64,000 nt of DNA from Erythrobacter sp. Lineage in GTDB: Bacteria > Pseudomonadota > Alphaproteobacteria > Sphingomonadales > Sphingomonadaceae. Positions 34,706 through 62,521 of this stretch are shown piece by piece. A program made the position numbers and the translations under genes. Every line of letters begins with the position of its first letter. Positions within the stretch are counted from its first letter, which is position 1. Under the pieces are notes generated by a model. That model was not told the DNA's origin. It searched no databases and was given only the letters and a program-made list of their open reading frames with translations. The DNA is taken from positions 62,001 through 126,000 of the forward strand of contig DAICXZ010000030.1 of assembly GCA_027311945.1 (NCBI GenBank), in the 5' to 3' direction.

Positions 34706-34796
34706 CCGCTCATCCTGAGCTTGTCGAAGGATTGGCCTTGTTCGAGCGCGATGCTGGAAGAGAAGGACAGCCCTTCGACAGGCTCAGGGCGAGCGG
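34706..34796. repeat. Dispersed 91-bp palindromic element, copy A
   Basis: Outer arms CCGCTCATCCTGAGCTTGTCGAAGG and CCCTTCGACAGGCTCAGGGCGAGCGG are inverted complements; an inner pair (GGCCTT... and ...GAGAAGGACAG) gives a second stem. It fills the gap between the PQQ dehydrogenase stop and the 586-aa gene start. Same element as copies B-D. Confidence 0.9.
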
Positions 34797-34811: not shown

Positions 34812-36941
34812 TCAAGGATGCCCCGCATCGGCATAGTCCTCGTTCGCGCGGGCAATCAGGTAGGCGTGAATGTCGCTCGCATCCTGTTCGCTCAGCACGT
34901 CGCCGAAGCCGATCATGCCCCGGTCGGCGTAGATTCCGCGCAACACGATATCGTTGAACTTCTCGCGCGTTTCGGCACTCATCCAGCGCAGATCCTTAAC
35001 CCCGCCAATGGCGTTCTCGCCATGGCAGCGGTTGCAACTCTCGCCATAGAGCGCACGGCCCCGCGCGACCTCGGCCTCGGTCGCGGTCAGCCACGGCGGG
35101 CGCGGCAGCGCGGCAGCAGGGGCGGGCGGTGGCAACGTGACGCCTGAAGCGCCAAGTTTGAACACCAGCAGCTTCGCGCTCGAAGTGCTGAACTGGCCGA
35201 GGTTGTACACCGGGGAGCCGCCCCAGCCGGCGTTGATCGCGATATATTGCTCTCCGCCCGCCATATAGGTGATGGCCCCGGCGATGGGGACTTGGTCGAT
35301 GTCCATCTCCCACAGCTTGCGGCCATCATCGGCGGCATAGATCGCAAGCGTCTTGTCGATCGTGCCTTGCACCAGCAGGTTGCCCGCCGTAGCCAGCACT
35401 CCCCCCGAGCCGGGCACGCGATAGGGCACGCGCCAGGCTTCGCTCTGCGTCGCCGGGTTCCACGCGAGGAGATAGCCTTTCTCCGCCGCATTGATCTGCT
35501 TCTGCAACTCGCTGCGCAGTTCGGGCATGTTGCCGCGCGCCTGGCCGGAATTGCTGCGGTGGTGCACCCAGTCTGGCTTTTCCTCGGCGCGGGCATATAT
35601 CGCGCCCTGTTCCTGCGCGGGGAAATAGACGAGGCCGGTCTGCGGACTGAAAGCCATCGGATGCCAGCTGTGCGCGGCGAGCCAGCTCGGGCTCATGATG
35701 TGCGGGGTCGTGCCGTTGTGCGCACCGGGCATGAGCACCGGGCGGCCCATGGCCATGTCGATCCGGCTCGCCCAGGTGTTGACCGAGACGTAGCTTTCCG
35801 CGCTCAGCAGTTCGCCGGTTGCGCGGTCGAGCACATAGAAGAACCCATTCTTGGGCGCCTGCATGATGACCTGCCGGGTGCGCCCCTCGATCTCGAGATC
35901 GGCGGTCATCAGCGGCTGGGTGCAGGTAAAGTCCCAGTCCTCCTCGGGCACCATCTGGTAGTGCCATTTGTACTCGCCCGTGTCGGCATCGACCGCTACC
36001 ACCGAGCAGAGGAACAGGTTGTCGCCTTTGCCCTCGCTGCGGAAGTACCACATGTGCGGGCTGCCGTTGCCGGTGCCGATGTATACGAGATTGAGCGCCG
36101 GATCGTAGATCATCGAATCCCACGCCGCGCCGCCGCCGCCGATCTCCCAGAACTTGCCGAACCAGGTGGGGTGGGCGATATCCATCGCGCTGTCGGAGGC
36201 TTCGCCATCCGGCCCATCGGCGGGGTTGCCGGGAACGAGGTAGAACTTCCAGATCCGCTCGCCGGTGTTCACATCGTAGGCGGCGACGAAGCCGCGCGTG
36301 CCGTAGTCCGCGCCGCCGTTGCCGATCACCACCTTGCCATCGAACACCCGCGGCGCGCCGGTGATCGAATAGGCTTCGGACCGGTCGAAAGTCTGGGTGG
36401 TCCACAGTTCCTGCCCGGTCTTCGCATCCACCGCGATCAGCCGTCCATCGAGCGCGGCGATGATGATCTTGCCTTCCCAGGCCGCGATCCCGCGCGAGGT
36501 GGGACCGCAGCAGGCGAGCCGTGCCCATTCGGCTCCGACCTGCGGGTCGTAGGTCCACAGCTTTTCGCCTGTGGCGCCATCGTAGGCGGTGACGACGTTA
36601 TACACGTTGGCGTTGTAGAGTACGCCGTCGATCGCGAGCGGGGTAGCCTGCACGCCGCGCATCGTTTCGAGATCGTCGAACCATGCAAGACCGAGCCGGC
36701 TCACGTTGCCATCGTTGATCTGCGTAAGCGGCGAATAGCGCTGCTCTCCCCAATCCCGCCCGTAACTCATCCAGTTGCCCGCATTGGCCGGGGCATCCAC
36801 CGCGCGCATGGCTGCGCCATCGACTGTGTCACCAGAGGAAGTGGCGAGGGAGGTCTCGGGCATGGACTGGCACGAGGCCAGCGCCAGCGCGGCCGTGGCC
36901 CAGATCGGTAGTCGCAGTGCTTTGAGTCCCGCCTGTCCCAA
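34812..36941 (-). CDS. Quinohemoprotein (PQQ plus haem c) dehydrogenase, predicted lipoprotein
   Basis: 709 aa from a TTG at 36941 placed 6 bases after GGGAGAGGGA; the track's upstream start lacks an RBS. Signal MGQAGLKALRLPIWATAALALASCQ with lipobox LASC. The eight-bladed PQQ propeller has the vicinal disulfide Cys pair (LACCGPTSRG), TGAPRVFDGKVVIGNGG, EEDWDFTCTQP and APKNGFFYVLDRATGE. The C-terminal cytochrome c domain has haem motif CNRCHGENAIGG and Met ligand region RGMIGFGDVL. Type II quinohemoprotein alcohol dehydrogenases oxidise periplasmic alcohols and pass electrons via haem c. Paralogue of the enzyme at 44163. Next to the TonB receptor on the same strand. Confidence 0.93.
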   Translation of the reverse strand: MGQAGLKALRLPIWATAALALASCQSMPETSLATSSGDTVDGAAMRAVDAPANAGNWMSYGRDWGEQRYSPLTQINDGNVSRLGLAWFDDLETMRGVQATPLAIDGVLYNANVYNVVTAYDGATGEKLWTYDPQVGAEWARLACCGPTSRGIAAWEGKIIIAALDGRLIAVDAKTGQELWTTQTFDRSEAYSITGAPRVFDGKVVIGNGGADYGTRGFVAAYDVNTGERIWKFYLVPGNPADGPDGEASDSAMDIAHPTWFGKFWEIGGGGAAWDSMIYDPALNLVYIGTGNGSPHMWYFRSEGKGDNLFLCSVVAVDADTGEYKWHYQMVPEEDWDFTCTQPLMTADLEIEGRTRQVIMQAPKNGFFYVLDRATGELLSAESYVSVNTWASRIDMAMGRPVLMPGAHNGTTPHIMSPSWLAAHSWHPMAFSPQTGLVYFPAQEQGAIYARAEEKPDWVHHRSNSGQARGNMPELRSELQKQINAAEKGYLLAWNPATQSEAWRVPYRVPGSGGVLATAGNLLVQGTIDKTLAIYAADDGRKLWEMDIDQVPIAGAITYMAGGEQYIAINAGWGGSPVYNLGQFSTSSAKLLVFKLGASGVTLPPPAPAAALPRPPWLTATEAEVARGRALYGESCNRCHGENAIGGVKDLRWMSAETREKFNDIVLRGIYADRGMIGFGDVLSEQDASDIHAYLIARANEDYADAGHP

Positions 36942-40795: not shown

Positions 40796-41758
40796 ATGAG
40801 CAGCTGGTCGAGCCCTGTTCTTGCGCTGAGCGTCGCCGGTACGCTGGCGGCTTGCGCTCACGCCGAGGTGCCGCTTGCGGAGGAGCCAGCGGCGCAGATC
40901 ACCATCCGCGGTGCGGGCGTGTTCCCCGAAAGTATCGCCTCCGATGCGGCGGGCAACATCTATGTCAGCTCCAATCCCGGCGTGATTTACCGCGCCTTGG
41001 CGGGTAGCGATGTGGCTGAGCCATGGGTGCAGCCCGATGCGGTGAACGGCCCTGTTTCGGCTTTCGGCGTGCTTGCAGACGATGCGCGCGAGCTGCTCTG
41101 GGTCTGCTTCAACCCGGCGATGGGCGCCGAGGGCGGGGCGCCCGCGATCAAGACCTTCGACCTTGCGAGTGGCGCGCTGAAAGCCAGCTATCCGCTCGCC
41201 ACGGGCGAGGGGCCGGCCATGTGCAACGACATTACTGTCGCCGCCGATGGCGCGGTGTTTGCGAGCGAGATGCTCGGCGGGCGGATCATGCGGCTGGCGC
41301 CCGGTGGTGAGCGGTTCGAGGTCTGGGCGGTGGACCCCGAATTCGCCACGCTCGACGGCATTTCCTTCGCGGCGGACGGCACGCTCTATGCGAATGCGAT
41401 CCAGCGCAACACGCTGCTGCGCATCCACCGCAAGGCCGATGGCAGCTTCGCCCGCGCCGAGCAGGTGGAAACCTCGCGCGATATGGTGACGCCCGATGGT
41501 CTGCGCCCCTTGCCCGATGGGCGCATGTTGCAGACCGAGGGCAATACGGGGCTGGTCACCGTGATTGCCTTCAGCGCGGATGGCTCGGCCACTGTCACAC
41601 CGATCGCGGAGGGGGTGGACTATGCCTCCTCGGTCACGCCGGTCGGCGGGCGGGCCTACTTTCCCGAAGGCAAGCTGCGGTTCCTGTTCGGTCCCGACGT
41701 GGGCAAGGCTCCGGGCACCTTCGTGATCCGCTCGGTAGCTATCCCGGAGGTGCAGTAA
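40796..41758 (+). CDS. SMP-30/gluconolactonase-like beta-propeller lipoprotein
   Basis: 320 aa from the ATG at 40796 (RBS GGGAGA); the track adds 49 spurious residues. Signal MSSWSSPVLALSVAGTLAAC with lipobox LAAC. The mature part is a six-bladed propeller of the SMP-30/strictosidine-synthase type: FPESIASDAAGNIYVSS, NDITVAADGAVFASEM, TLDGISFAADGTLYANAIQ and TPDGLRPLPDG. Such enzymes are calcium-dependent lactonases or hydrolases. First gene of a tight rightward operon with three SnoaL proteins and a PQQ dehydrogenase, where it could open a lactone formed by oxidation (inference). Confidence 0.9.
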   Translation: MSSWSSPVLALSVAGTLAACAHAEVPLAEEPAAQITIRGAGVFPESIASDAAGNIYVSSNPGVIYRALAGSDVAEPWVQPDAVNGPVSAFGVLADDARELLWVCFNPAMGAEGGAPAIKTFDLASGALKASYPLATGEGPAMCNDITVAADGAVFASEMLGGRIMRLAPGGERFEVWAVDPEFATLDGISFAADGTLYANAIQRNTLLRIHRKADGSFARAEQVETSRDMVTPDGLRPLPDGRMLQTEGNTGLVTVIAFSADGSATVTPIAEGVDYASSVTPVGGRAYFPEGKLRFLFGPDVGKAPGTFVIRSVAIPEVQ

Positions 41759-42453
41759 TGCGGATGCTCTTGGTCATGGCTGCCTTGGCGCTGCCTGCAT
41801 CGGCGCAGGCACAAAGTGCGGCTCAGGCGCGCGAGATTGCCGCGCTCGATGCGCGTGTGACCGTGCTTGAGGGGACGCGTGAGGTGCGCAATCTCCAGCG
41901 CGCTTTCGGTTACTTCATGGACCGCGGGCTGTGGCGGCAGGCGGCGCAGCTGTTTGCCGCAGATGGCACCATCGAGATCGGCCTCGACGGCGTCTATCGT
42001 GGACCGGAGCGGATCGAGCACTATCTGCGGCTGCTCCATGGCGGGCAGGAGGGGCTGATCTACGGCCAGCTTAACGAATGGGTGACGCTGCAACCGATGA
42101 TCGCGGTCGCGCCCGATGGGATGAGCGCCGAGGCGCGCTGGCGCGATCTCGGGATGCTCGGCCAATACAAGAGCCACGCCGAATGGCGCGATGGCATCTA
42201 TGAGAACACCTATGTGAAGGGCGCGGACGGCAAGTGGCGGATTGCCAGCCTCACGCTCCATGTGAACTTCGTCGCGCCCTACAAAGAGGGCTGGGCTCGG
42301 CTGGAAGAGGGCGAGGGAGTGGTGCGCTCGCAGGCTTCGGTGGACTTCCCGCCCGATGCGCCGTCGAGCTTGGAAGACGCGGCCTTCCCGGCGGTGAATG
42401 TGCCGCCCTTTGCGATTCCCCATCCGGTGACCGGACGGGAGGTGCGGCCATGA
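41758..42453 (+). CDS. Exported SnoaL/NTF2-like protein, paralogue 1
   Basis: 231 aa. Short normal signal peptide MRMLLVMAALALPASAQAQ, then a coiled stretch (REIAALDARVTVLEG) and the NTF2-like fold: NLQRAFGYFMDRGLWRQAAQLF, ADGTIEIGLDGVYRGPERI and DGKWRIASLTLHVNF. The C-terminal tail ends in FAIPHPVTGREVRP; an H-P-V-T-G tail recurs in paralogues 2 and 3. Its ATG overlaps the SMP-30 TAA by one base. It lacks the palindrome found in the next two genes and so shows what the unmodified signal peptide looks like. Enzyme activity unknown. Confidence 0.9.
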   Translation: MRMLLVMAALALPASAQAQSAAQAREIAALDARVTVLEGTREVRNLQRAFGYFMDRGLWRQAAQLFAADGTIEIGLDGVYRGPERIEHYLRLLHGGQEGLIYGQLNEWVTLQPMIAVAPDGMSAEARWRDLGMLGQYKSHAEWRDGIYENTYVKGADGKWRIASLTLHVNFVAPYKEGWARLEEGEGVVRSQASVDFPPDAPSSLEDAAFPAVNVPPFAIPHPVTGREVRP

Positions 42454-43262
42454 CACAAGCACCGATATCCGCTCATCCTGAGCCTGTCGAAGGATCGTCC
42501 TTCTTTTCCCGCCATGTTTGCAATGAGAAAAGCAGCCCTTCGACAGGCTCAGGACGAGCGGCTGTCTTGGGCATGTTGGCCCTCATATGCACGCCTCTCA
42601 TTCCTGCTCAGGCCCAGACCGTCGACCAGCGCATCGCTGACTATCGCCAGCGCGTCGAACGGCTTGAAGACCGCGATGCCATCGAGAACCTGCAGGCGGC
42701 CTATGGCTACTATTTCGACAAGGGCTTGTGGAGCGAGGTCGCGGGCCTGTTTGCGCGCGACGGCACCTTCGAATACGGGATGCGCGGCGTCTATCACACC
42801 CCTGCCCGGATCGAGCGTGCGCTGCTGCTGTTCGGGCCGGAGGGCCTCGCGCCGGGCTATCTCAACACGCACATGCAGTTGCAGGCGGTGATAACCGTGG
42901 CGGAGGATGGCCGCACCGCCGCTGGCCGCTTTCAGGGCATGGTGATGCTGGCTGAGCCGGGGCACAACGGCGTCTGGGGCGTGGGCATCTATGAGAATCG
43001 CTATGTGAAGGAGCGCGGTACGTGGAAGATCGCCAGCCTGCATTTCTACCCCACCGGCTTTACTGACTACGATCTCGGCTGGATGAAGTCGCAGTTGCCG
43101 CTGGCGGGGCAATCGGCGCTGTTCCCGCCGGACGAACCACCGAGCGAGCCTTATCGCGCGCTGCCTTCGAACTACATTCCGCCGTTCAGCTACAGCCATC
43201 CGGTGACGGGCGAGGAGATCACGCTGACACAGCCGGCCGACGATCTGGTGGGGAGGGAGTGA
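42450..43262 (+). CDS. Exported SnoaL/NTF2-like protein, paralogue 2, with palindrome inside the signal-peptide coding region
   Basis: 270 aa from the ATG at 42450 (4-base overlap with paralogue 1). Residues 8-38 are encoded by the dispersed palindrome (SAHPEPVEG ... SSPSTGSGRA), after which AAVLGMLALICTPLIPAQAQ gives the hydrophobic core and cleavage site. The mature part matches paralogues 1 and 3: LEDRDAIENLQAAYGYYFDKGLWSE, DGTFEYGMRGVYHTP, ERGTWKIASLHFYPTGF and a FSYSHPVTGEEI tail. Either the element lengthened the n-region and the gene starts at 42450, or translation starts later (TTG 42567 or ATG 42573). Enzyme activity unknown. Confidence 0.87.
   Translation: MTQAPISAHPEPVEGSSFFSRHVCNEKSSPSTGSGRAAVLGMLALICTPLIPAQAQTVDQRIADYRQRVERLEDRDAIENLQAAYGYYFDKGLWSEVAGLFARDGTFEYGMRGVYHTPARIERALLLFGPEGLAPGYLNTHMQLQAVITVAEDGRTAAGRFQGMVMLAEPGHNGVWGVGIYENRYVKERGTWKIASLHFYPTGFTDYDLGWMKSQLPLAGQSALFPPDEPPSEPYRALPSNYIPPFSYSHPVTGEEITLTQPADDLVGRE
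42469..42561. repeat. Dispersed palindromic element, copy B, in frame within a SnoaL gene
   Basis: Outer arms CCGCTCATCCTGAGCCTGTCGAAGG and CCCTTCGACAGGCTCAGGACGAGCGG; inner stem TCCTTCTTTTC/GAGAAAAGCAG. 93 bp long, exactly 31 codons, so it keeps the frame. Confidence 0.93.
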
Positions 43263-44158
43263 TGCGCAAGTCCTCAAACGCAGAGTCCGCTCATCCTGAG
43301 CTTGTCGAAGGATTGTCCTTTTTTGGCAACCTGTGGCGCAGAAGGAAAGACGGCCCTTCGACAAGCTCAGGGCGAGCGGGTCTTGCTTTGTTGGGTGTGG
43401 TGTTGGCTATGCTGCACACCACCCCCGCCGCCGCGCAGGACAACGCAGACCAACAGCTCGATCAGCTCGACCGCCGCATCACCCGGCTCGAGGACATGAA
43501 TGCGATCGAGACGCTCCAGCGCACCTACGGCTATTTCGTCGACAAAGGCCAGTGGACGCACCTTTCCAACCTCTTCGCCGATGACGCCACGCTCGAAATC
43601 GGTGGCAAGGGCATCTTCGTCGGGCGCGAGCGGGTGCTCGAATATATGCAGACCGCCTTCGGGCCGGATGGCGCGCCGATGGGCATTCTCGTCAACCACA
43701 TGCAGTTCCAGCCGGTGACCCATATCAGCGATGATGGGCGCGAAGGCTGGTTGCGCGGGCGGGCCTTCGTGATGGCGTCGAGCGGATGGGGCCTGCCGCT
43801 TTATGAAGACGCGTTCGAAAAGGGCGACGACGGCGTGTGGCGGATCAGCCGCCTGACCGGCCCTTTCACGATGTACACCAGCTGGGCGGGGTGGGGCGAG
43901 AACGCGCTCAACAACACCTGGCCCGACAAGTTCGATCCGCCGCCTGACCTGCCGCCCTCGGTGGTCTACCTGACCTATCCGGCCTATTACATCGTGCCGT
44001 TCCACTATCCGCACCCGGTCACTGGCGAGGTGTTCGAGGCCGACGCGGGCGAGGCCGGGGCCTATCACCGTCCGCCGGGCACGCCCGAACAACGCCAGAG
44101 CCTGACCGTTGGCCGCACCGTCAACGGCAGCCAGCCGATCATGCCTCCGGGAGAATAG
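43262..44158 (+). CDS. Exported SnoaL/NTF2-like protein, paralogue 3, with palindrome inside the signal-peptide coding region
   Basis: 298 aa from the ATG at 43262, which overlaps the previous TGA; the track's GTG one codon earlier is less likely. Residues 9-39 are palindrome-coded (ESAHPELVEG ... GPSTSSGRA), followed by GLALLGVVLAMLHTTPAAAQ, a hydrophobic core with an AAA-Q cleavage site. The mature part continues RITRLEDMNAIETLQRTYGYFVDKGQW, DDATLEIGGKGIFVGRERV and a long tail with FHYPHPVTGEVFEAD. Adjacent PQQ dehydrogenase starts 4 bases on. As in paralogue 2, the true start could lie after the element. Confidence 0.88.
   Translation: MRKSSNAESAHPELVEGLSFFGNLWRRRKDGPSTSSGRAGLALLGVVLAMLHTTPAAAQDNADQQLDQLDRRITRLEDMNAIETLQRTYGYFVDKGQWTHLSNLFADDATLEIGGKGIFVGRERVLEYMQTAFGPDGAPMGILVNHMQFQPVTHISDDGREGWLRGRAFVMASSGWGLPLYEDAFEKGDDGVWRISRLTGPFTMYTSWAGWGENALNNTWPDKFDPPPDLPPSVVYLTYPAYYIVPFHYPHPVTGEVFEADAGEAGAYHRPPGTPEQRQSLTVGRTVNGSQPIMPPGE
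43287..43379. repeat. Dispersed palindromic element, copy C, in frame within a SnoaL gene
   Basis: Outer arms CCGCTCATCCTGAGCTTGTCGAAGG and CCCTTCGACAAGCTCAGGGCGAGCGG, inner TCCTTTTTT/GAAGGAAAGAC. 93 bp, again a multiple of three and read in the same frame as copy B. Confidence 0.93.
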
Positions 44159-44162
44159 ACCC

Positions 44163-46229
44163 TTGCGCATTTCCGCGATTGCGGCAGCCCTGCTGCTTGC
44201 CTCCTGCACTACGGCCGCAGTTCCGCCGCAAGCCGTCACCCCGTCGGCCGATGCGGGCGACTGGACCAGCGACGGGCGCGACTATTCGGCGCAGCGCTAT
44301 TCCCCGCTCACGCAGATCAATGCCGAGAACGTGAGCCAGCTTGGCCTTGCCTGGTACGACGATCTCGATACCTATCGCGGGGTCGAGGCGACGCCGCTCT
44401 ATGCCGACGGGGTGCTTTACAACACGCTGCCGTGGAACATTACCATCGCCTATGACGCGCGCACCGGCGAACGGCTGTGGACCTACGATCCCAAGGTGCC
44501 GCGCGAATATGGCCGCTATGCCTGCTGCGAGCCGGTCAGCCGGGGCCTTGCCATGCACGATGGCAAGATTATCATCGCCACGCTCGACGGGCGGCTGATC
44601 GCAATCGACCGGACCAGTGGCGAGCCGGTCTGGACCTCGCGCGCCTTCCCGGAAGATACGAACTACGCCTATTCGATCACCGGCGCGCCGCGTGTGTTCG
44701 ATGGCAAGGTGGTGATCGGCCAGTCGGGCGGCGACATGGGCGTGCGCGGGTTTGCCGCCGCCTTTGACGCCGACACGGGGGCAAAGCTTTGGAAGTTCTT
44801 TCTTACCCCCAACCCGGACGATGCCCCCGATGGCGAGGCGAGTGATCCCGTCAACGCCATGATGCGCGCGACCTGGGCCGATGAAGGCATGTGGAAGCAG
44901 CTGGGCGGCGGGGCCAACCCGTGGGACAGCTTCGCTTACGATCCCGAGCTGAACCTGGTCTATGTCGGCACCGGCAATTCGGTCCCGCATTCGCGGTTCT
45001 ATCGCTCGAACAACGAGGGCGACAACCTGTTCGTGTGCTCGATCGTGGCGCTCAATGCCGATACTGGCGAATATCGCTGGCACTACCAGATGAACCCCGG
45101 CGAGGAGTGGGACTGGACCTGCACCCAGTCGATGATTCAGGCCGACCTCGAAATCGATGGCCGCCAGCGCAAGGTCATCATGCAGGCACCCAAGAACGGG
45201 TTCTTCTACGTGCTCGATCGCGAGACCGGCGAATTCATCTCGGCGCAAGCGCACGTGTTCCAGAGCTGGAATGCCGGGTTTGACTCCAATGGTCGCCCGA
45301 TCACGCGCGAAAACGCGCGTTACACCGAAACGCCGGTGCTGGTCTCACCGGGGCCGGGCGGGGCGCACAACTGGTTCCCGATGGCCTTTTCTCCGCGCAC
45401 CGGCCTTGCCTATTTCCCGGCCTATCAGTCGGCCTTTCCCTATGCGGTGATGCCGGGCTGGACGCCGGCCCCCTTGCGCTCGAACTCGGGCTGGGGCGCT
45501 GTGGGCGAAGAAGCTGCGCGCACCCAAGGCAATCTCTTTGCCGAGGCCGCGCAATACGAGAAAGCCTGGCTCACCGCCTGGGACCCGGTGAAGCAGGAGG
45601 CGGCCTGGCAGGTCGAACTGCCGCGCCACGGCAATGGCGGGGTGTTCGTCACCGCCTCCGACCTCGTGTTCGAGGGCACCACACGCCAGACCTTCGCCGC
45701 CTTCGATGCGCGCACCGGGGAAGAGCTGTGGAGCTACCCGACGCAGAGCGCGCCGGTGGCGGGCGGCATCACCTATATGCTCGACGGCGTGCAATATGTC
45801 GCGGTCAACGCCGGGTGGGGCGGCGGCGCTGCCCAGATCGAGCGCGGGGCAGGAACCGAGCTTCCGCGCAGCGCGGCGCGGCTGCTGGTGTTCGAGCTGG
45901 GCGGGACGGCGCAGTTGCCGCCGCTGCCCGCACAGGCGAGCGCTCCCCCCGAACCGCCCCGGCTGCGGGCCGATGAGGCGACGGTTGAACGCGGGCGGGC
46001 GCTGTTCGCGCAGACCTGCGCGCTGTGCCACGGCCAGAACGCAATCGGCGGCGTGAAAGACCTGCGCCACATGGATCGCGCCACGCATGACAAGTTTGCT
46101 GATATCGTGCTCGGCGGGATATACCTCGACAAGGGCATGGCCAGCTTTTCCGACATCCTGAGCGAGGAGGATGTCGCGGCGATCCACGCCTATGTCATTG
46201 CCCGCGCCAACGAGGACTGGGGCCGTTAA
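44163..46229 (+). CDS. Quinohemoprotein (PQQ plus haem c) dehydrogenase, predicted lipoprotein, second paralogue
   Basis: 688 aa from a TTG at 44163, 6-10 bases after GGGAGAA; the track's upstream start overlaps the SnoaL gene. Signal LRISAIAAALLLASCTT with lipobox LASC. Same plan as the 34.8-kb enzyme: vicinal pair YACCEPVSRG, GEEWDWTCTQS, APKNGFFYVLDRETGEFIS, then haem c CALCHGQNAIGG and Met region KGMASFSDIL. Paralogues differ in the substrate-facing loops (ENARYTETPVLVSPGPGGAHN here against ASRIDMAMGRPVL), so they may take different alcohols or sequential steps. Last gene of the SMP-30/SnoaL operon. Confidence 0.93.
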   Translation: MRISAIAAALLLASCTTAAVPPQAVTPSADAGDWTSDGRDYSAQRYSPLTQINAENVSQLGLAWYDDLDTYRGVEATPLYADGVLYNTLPWNITIAYDARTGERLWTYDPKVPREYGRYACCEPVSRGLAMHDGKIIIATLDGRLIAIDRTSGEPVWTSRAFPEDTNYAYSITGAPRVFDGKVVIGQSGGDMGVRGFAAAFDADTGAKLWKFFLTPNPDDAPDGEASDPVNAMMRATWADEGMWKQLGGGANPWDSFAYDPELNLVYVGTGNSVPHSRFYRSNNEGDNLFVCSIVALNADTGEYRWHYQMNPGEEWDWTCTQSMIQADLEIDGRQRKVIMQAPKNGFFYVLDRETGEFISAQAHVFQSWNAGFDSNGRPITRENARYTETPVLVSPGPGGAHNWFPMAFSPRTGLAYFPAYQSAFPYAVMPGWTPAPLRSNSGWGAVGEEAARTQGNLFAEAAQYEKAWLTAWDPVKQEAAWQVELPRHGNGGVFVTASDLVFEGTTRQTFAAFDARTGEELWSYPTQSAPVAGGITYMLDGVQYVAVNAGWGGGAAQIERGAGTELPRSAARLLVFELGGTAQLPPLPAQASAPPEPPRLRADEATVERGRALFAQTCALCHGQNAIGGVKDLRHMDRATHDKFADIVLGGIYLDKGMASFSDILSEEDVAAIHAYVIARANEDWGR

Positions 46230-62431: not shown

Positions 62432-62521
62432 CCGCTCGCCCTGAGCTTGTCGAAGGGCTGTCCTTACTTCTGGTGCCGCGCTCGGAGAAAAGCAGTCCTT
62501 CGACAAGCTCAGGATGAGCGG
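62432..62521. repeat. Dispersed palindromic element, copy D
   Basis: 90 bp, outer arms CCGCTCGCCCTGAGCTTGTCGAAGG and TCCTTCGACAAGCTCAGGATGAGCGG, inner TCCTTACTTC/GAGAAAAGCAG. It separates the carboxyltransferase and biotin carrier genes. Confidence 0.92.

Follow-up and report, generated by a model that had tools for sequence, protein, structure and literature searches.

Two adjacent SnoaL-family genes of an Erythrobacter genome begin with signal peptides that are interrupted by the same palindrome, which raises the questions of whether the repeat is translated, how it came to occupy similar places in two paralogues, and which enzyme moves it. The window, i.e. the whole stretch of DNA analysed, comprises 64,000 nucleotides of this genome (G000).

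Palindromic elements in two SnoaL signal peptides

The following features of the window were considered.

34706..34796, no strand assigned: copy A, of the same element family as B and C, without a coding-like ORF across the copy
41758..42453, forward strand: SnoaL paralogue 1, with an ordinary signal peptide, element-free
42437..42442, forward strand: Shine-Dalgarno-like GGGAGG of paralogue 2, 5' of element B, retained in the element-free A. suaedae (alignment)
42450..43262, forward strand: SnoaL paralogue 2 (270 aa), its ATG overlapping the stop of paralogue 1 (ATGA)
42469..42561, no strand assigned: palindromic element B, 93 bp, arms 42469-42493 and 42537-42561, in frame in the signal-peptide n-region
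43250..43259, forward strand: Shine-Dalgarno-like GGGGAGGGAG of paralogue 3, retained in element-free orthologues
43262..44158, forward strand: SnoaL paralogue 3 (298 aa), its ATG overlapping the stop of paralogue 2 (TGATG)
43287..43379, no strand assigned: palindromic element C, 93 bp, arms 43287-43311 and 43355-43379, in frame in the signal-peptide n-region
62432..62521, no strand assigned: copy D, of the same element family as B and C, outside any convincing ORF

All three paralogues were assigned to SnoaL_4 (PF13577) by family search. The initial annotation had described B and C as mobile palindromes of 93 bp read in frame, and paralogue 1 as a gene with an ordinary signal peptide; the coordinates and translations agree with this description, and paralogue 1 indeed lacks the element. 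The N-terminus of paralogue 2 reads MTQAPI-SAHPEPVEGSSFFSRHVCNEKSSPSTGSGRA-AVLGMLALICTPLIPAQAQ and that of paralogue 3 MRKSSNAE-SAHPELVEGLSFFGNLWRRRKDGPSTSSGRA-GLALLGVVLAMLHTTPAAAQ. The translated element is SAHPEPVEG...PSTGSGRA in B and SAHPELVEG...PSTSSGRA in C, and the closing codons (...SGRA) place an arginine next to the hydrophobic core.

Each element folds into a single long hairpin, with z-scores of -7.8 (B) and -6.7 (C) as DNA and of -8.4 and -8.3 as RNA; none of 200 shuffles folded equally well. The RNA hairpin begins approximately 19-28 nt past the start codon and would presumably leave the initiation region unpaired.

Regarding the surroundings of these genes, the window also contains two inverted stretches, 35811-36790 and 44245-45233, that are 71-77% similar. 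The right stretch (44245-45233) lies within a gene for a PQQ-dependent dehydrogenase with a C-terminal cytochrome c domain, and its similarity to the left stretch (35811-36790) suggests that the latter is a diverged paralogue of this gene.

The elements lie downstream of a conserved start

Two outcomes had been proposed for these insertions, the element having either become part of the n-region or moved the translation start. A stop overlap and a Shine-Dalgarno sequence of the same kind were found in element-free orthologues, for example in Aurantiacibacter suaedae (MIRLSLAALALAVVAAPLQAQ and MMRVTRNMGVVLSGLVLGFLTTPATAQ). Since the start codon and the ribosome-binding site are kept in the absence of the element, B and C are most likely coding, in-frame insertions at two signal peptides, which entered 3' of an existing start and separated the n-region from the hydrophobic core. 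The first outcome is favoured and the second is not, as the start, the stop overlap and the Shine-Dalgarno sequence all lie upstream and persist in element-free relatives. Translation would begin at the upstream start, and the proteins containing B and C are presumably exported.

Alternatively, both elements could be non-coding insertions into 5' UTRs, with translation beginning at a TTG or ATG codon past the element. Such codons are present, a 2013 survey cautions that REPs at ORF N-termini may mostly be extragenic (PMC3733652), and chance upstream open frames run through the element before ThiD-, DapB-, PrfC- and HemF-like genes. However, the downstream start candidates have weak Shine-Dalgarno sequences and their use would remove the positive n-region; the upstream Shine-Dalgarno sequence and start, which overlaps the preceding stop, are kept in element-free orthologues; and the frame is open from the upstream start in five of five paralogue-3 copies. 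A 5' UTR location thus appears distinctly unlikely. Read as coding insertions, B and C would be conserved-start cases that speak against the view of N-terminal copies as annotation errors.

History of the two insertions

The element begins 19 nt (6 codons in) from the A of the start codon in B and 25 nt (8 codons in) in C. In A. xanthus, both genes carry the element at these same two offsets; in A. suaedae, both sites are empty. Variants of the paralogue 3 element, in the same frame, were found in Alteraurantiacibacter aquimixticola (L117) and in two MAGs (L134, L135), and the remaining paralogue 3 orthologues that were aligned are element-free. The distribution of the element requires 5 changes on the paralogue-3 tree and likewise on a four-gene tree, which points to repeated gain, or to gain followed by several losses. 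Between the window genome and A. xanthus, orthologous copies of B and C show no greater similarity than non-orthologous pairs, so that the argument for a shared insertion in these two genomes lies in the identical offsets.

The comparison with element-free orthologues, proposed in the initial annotation, thus yielded empty sites for both paralogues, in A. suaedae and in other genomes. Their existence implies that the elements did not arrive with the gene duplication. Of the two routes envisaged at the outset, spread with the duplication was rejected on this ground, whereas insertion on two occasions fits. A related possibility is that a single element passed between paralogues 2 and 3, through duplication or gene conversion: B and C are neighbours of the same length and similar placement, and their identity falls within the top 10% of copy pairs. 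Yet this identity (0.83) is lower than that of the best pair (0.89), the offsets differ (19 versus 25 nt), each paralogue has many orthologues without the element within the genus, and A. aquimixticola and the two MAGs have the element in paralogue 3 and none in paralogue 2, possibly owing to separate insertions. We consider such a transfer very unlikely and retain two separate insertions as the preferred history.

The element in the genome and in other proteins

Exact half-arms occur 96 times in the 3.04-Mb genome, versus 0 occurrences of a reversed control pattern, and head-to-head pairs predominate among the copies. No target-site duplication was detected, direct repeats flanking the copies being at chance level. 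In-frame copies were selected by a frame-independent scan of ORFs and codon use, followed by individual reading of the candidates. Six were convincing in the window genome. Besides B and C, these are single copies within the essential enzymes encoded by valS, truB, glyS and carA, whose families were confirmed by search. All six are 81 or 93 bp long, both multiples of three, compared with 19 of 43 other copies whose length is divisible by three. The hydrophilic frame is used by all coding copies, although copies in which another, hydrophobic frame is open are about equally numerous.

The carA, glyS and valS sites are element-free in relatives (most of the genus), and at the position of the truB element relatives have a native loop. 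In other species (L174-L293), the valS, truB, glyS and carA loops harbor, in frame, unrelated palindrome-like peptides such as HSREGG...LDPRLRGYD, LPAGEGPGVGG and TPNPSRKREG, and this recurrence of unrelated families identifies these loops as tolerant hot spots. Relatives have further in-frame copies in genes resembling trmD, uvrA, hrpB and sufC, the last in two species at one and the same site; these genes were named by sequence recognition. The signal-peptide and enzyme-loop copies together illustrate how REP-like repeats turn into protein sequence.

Upstream open frames running through the element before ThiD-, DapB-, CobB-, HemF- and PrfC-like genes were not counted as coding. Where long ORFs of antisense appearance cross the element (L023, L330 and window position 62432), codon use and composition led to their classification as non-coding.

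The valS gene (L007, P0007) also contains a second, different in-frame insert, FNPPRSGEGDQPQAGGG...RPADGPPPHSGE, apparently of another palindrome family. Beyond the arms, the 43 non-coding copies of the window genome show a weak symmetric consensus, approximately CCCCAMMY on the left and RKKTGGGG on the right, to which B and C are poor matches.

Small GIY-YIG nuclease genes between matching arms

In two long copies of the window genome (L034 4511-4867 and L047 2314-2695), the same arms flank an ORF for a GIY-YIG nuclease (PF01541, E ~1e-15). Across 40 genomes of the genus, 47 of 69 small GIY-YIG genes were bracketed by inverted arms, called at a score of at least 18, versus 0.47% of 3000 random placements; about a third of these genes have no arms. 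The bracketing arms belong to about nine palindrome families, most of them with a CGTC-like tag. The nearest protein neighbour of a nuclease had the same arm family in 36 of 47 cases, against a mean of 6.7 and a maximum of 15 after shuffling, and nuclease number correlated with element number per genome (rho 0.62; 0.66 among the more complete genomes), although both relationships partly reflect shared ancestry, which inflates the tracking, because several nuclease loci with the arm family of the window are orthologous across species. Seven of the more complete genomes lack a small GIY-YIG gene, and they contain 0-3 element hits each. The active-site residues Tyr, Tyr, Arg, His and Glu of the nuclease are conserved at 96% or above.

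The L034 locus is shared across the genus, and many species have the nuclease element there. In A. suaedae and in genome G014, the element has decayed to remnants; that of G014 keeps both arms around a shortened interior and represents an intermediate towards the short form. At this locus in A. xanthus and some ten further genomes, the GIY-YIG element has the reverse orientation with respect to its flanking sequence.

Class-wide, arms were detected at 8 of 25 small GIY-YIG genes and at 0 of 5 UvrC genes. Among 12 named records most have arms, nine on inspection. Arm-bracketed GIY-YIG genes occur in Sinorhizobium, Neorhizobium, Rhizobium CIAT894, Shinella, Sphingobium, Sphingomonas parapaucimobilis and Aeromonas, as well as in Azospirillum lipoferum, between sufB and sufC, and Neisseria gonorrhoeae has a GIY-YIG gene with dRS3-type repeats. 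The pairing of arms and nuclease extends beyond the genus to Rhizobiaceae, Azospirillum, Neisseria (dRS3) and Aeromonas. The records NZ_CP119140.1 and NZ_AP026896.1 are labelled as plasmids and are of chromosome size (2.17 and 4.94 Mb). In the part of the open-access literature that was searched, no paper tying GIY-YIG genes to REPs was found, nor did any turn up in literature text with the element DNA or its peptides.

Proposed mobilisation of the palindromes

As an association, the partnership of the GIY-YIG nuclease with the palindromes is well supported by sequence comparison; as their mobiliser, the nuclease is a likely candidate. A counterpoint is that GIY-YIG nucleases are not known transposases and that no target-site duplication was found. 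The head-to-head dimer architecture resembles that of REPINs, and the palindromes could be REPINs moved by a RAYT, a Y1 HUH transposase since lost or acting from elsewhere; Y1_Tnp is present in 3 of 40 genus genomes. However, a search of the window genome for RAYT (Y1_Tnp, PF01797) gave no match, Y1_Tnp is likewise absent from the element-rich genomes G037, G027, G007 and G008, and it is GIY-YIG genes that recur between these arms. RAYT, absent from the element's own genome and rare in the genus (3/40), was rejected as the mobiliser, and this origin of the palindromes is highly improbable.

The GIY-YIG gene might instead be a homing-type passenger that enters existing REP dimers and does not mobilise them. 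Homing endonucleases are among the GIY-YIG enzymes (PMC3161791), and IS elements targeting REPs have been described (PMC1525189). Against a passenger, every lineage of the nuclease comes with an arm family of its own, the copy numbers of nuclease and element correlate, long copies with internal deletions exist, and the inner part of the short copies resembles, by eye, the arm-adjacent stretch of the long form. We regard a passenger as rather unlikely and favour the nuclease as mobiliser.

Based on these comparisons, B and C would be non-autonomous copies of a REP- or MITE-like mobile palindrome, inserted separately after the split of the paralogues, a few codons past an existing start. They may have been retained because their 31 codons offer an open hydrophilic frame, an arginine comes to lie next to the hydrophobic core, and the n-region tolerates lengthening. 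The autonomous form would be the element of approximately 360 bp, in which the same arms surround the small GIY-YIG nuclease gene. The most likely role of this nuclease is to recognise and cleave the hairpin arms, driving the spread of both forms. Taken as a whole, separate coding insertions of non-autonomous palindromes, mobilised by an arm-flanked GIY-YIG nuclease, are in our judgement the probable explanation of this locus.

More broadly, we lean towards the proposal that small stand-alone GIY-YIG nucleases are dedicated mobilisers of a REP-like superfamily, comprising CGTC REPs, among them Neisseria dRS3, and the CCTGAGCTTGTCGAAGG family, as a counterpart of the RAYT-REP system, and that non-autonomous copies repeatedly become loop or signal-peptide segments. 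If so, REP-like repeats would be moved by a GIY-YIG enzyme in addition to RAYTs, the emergence of dRS3 and its relatives would be explained, and the spread of CGTC-type REPs, left open in 2013 (PMC3733652), would have an answer. The question of the mover becomes directly testable with a specific nuclease that is conserved, retains its active site and is bracketed by matching repeats.

Comparison with known repeat systems

CGTC REPs, which include Neisseria dRS3 and RPE-4/RPE-6 of R. conorii (Di Nocera 2013, PMC3733652), are widespread in alpha-Proteobacteria, mostly as head-to-head dimers. Their hallmarks are an unpaired CGTC (or TGTC/CCTC) end tag, a stem of 8-9 bp with AT first pairs, a loop of 4-5 nt and a short CCA tail; intragenic dimers span 20-30 codons, and REPs of Erythrobacter litoralis and S. 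alaskensis are reported within TruB and tRNA synthetases (PMC3733652). The window family resembles them in its head-to-head dimers and in-frame intragenic copies (six in the window genome). By eye, its arm, ATCCTGAG-CTTGT-CGAAGGAT, shows AT at the ends and CTTGT as the loop, but single arms fold weakly. In contrast to CGTC REPs, the window family harbors CCGCTC/CCGTTC instead of CGTC, an arm stem with tandem G.A, and TG/CG after the stem in place of the CCA tail. Lacking the strict CGTC tag and the CCA tail, it is not classed as a CGTC REP. Other GIY-YIG arm families found here do bear the CGTC tag, e.g. CGTCATTCCCGCG. The 2013 survey found no dedicated transposase for CGTC REPs and left their mover open (PMC3733652), whereas in the present analysis every family has a GIY-YIG gene as its partner. 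The window family is nevertheless built like CGTC REPs, with the same nuclease partnership.

The REPIN/RAYT system (REPtron, PMC3116915 / PMC8266576) likewise combines dimers of short palindromes with a repeat-flanked enzyme gene that tracks the repeat family, but the enzyme here is a GIY-YIG nuclease and not a Y1 HUH transposase, and the window genome has no RAYT. Rickettsia palindromic elements (Ogata 2000, reviewed in PMC2229807) are also palindromes of ~100 bp in frame within conserved proteins; here, the host is a free-living member of the Sphingomonadales, signal peptides are affected too, and a nuclease gene is linked. Finally, bacterial MITEs such as Yersinia YPAL/RU-2 in an exported protein (PMC2229807) are non-autonomous inverted-repeat elements that contribute to a signal peptide. 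In Yersinia, a new gene owes part of its signal peptide to the element, whereas B and C split the n-region of existing genes. Unlike MITEs, the window family has no target-site duplication; like them, it has inverted repeats in common with a longer, gene-carrying element of the same genome (L034, L047).
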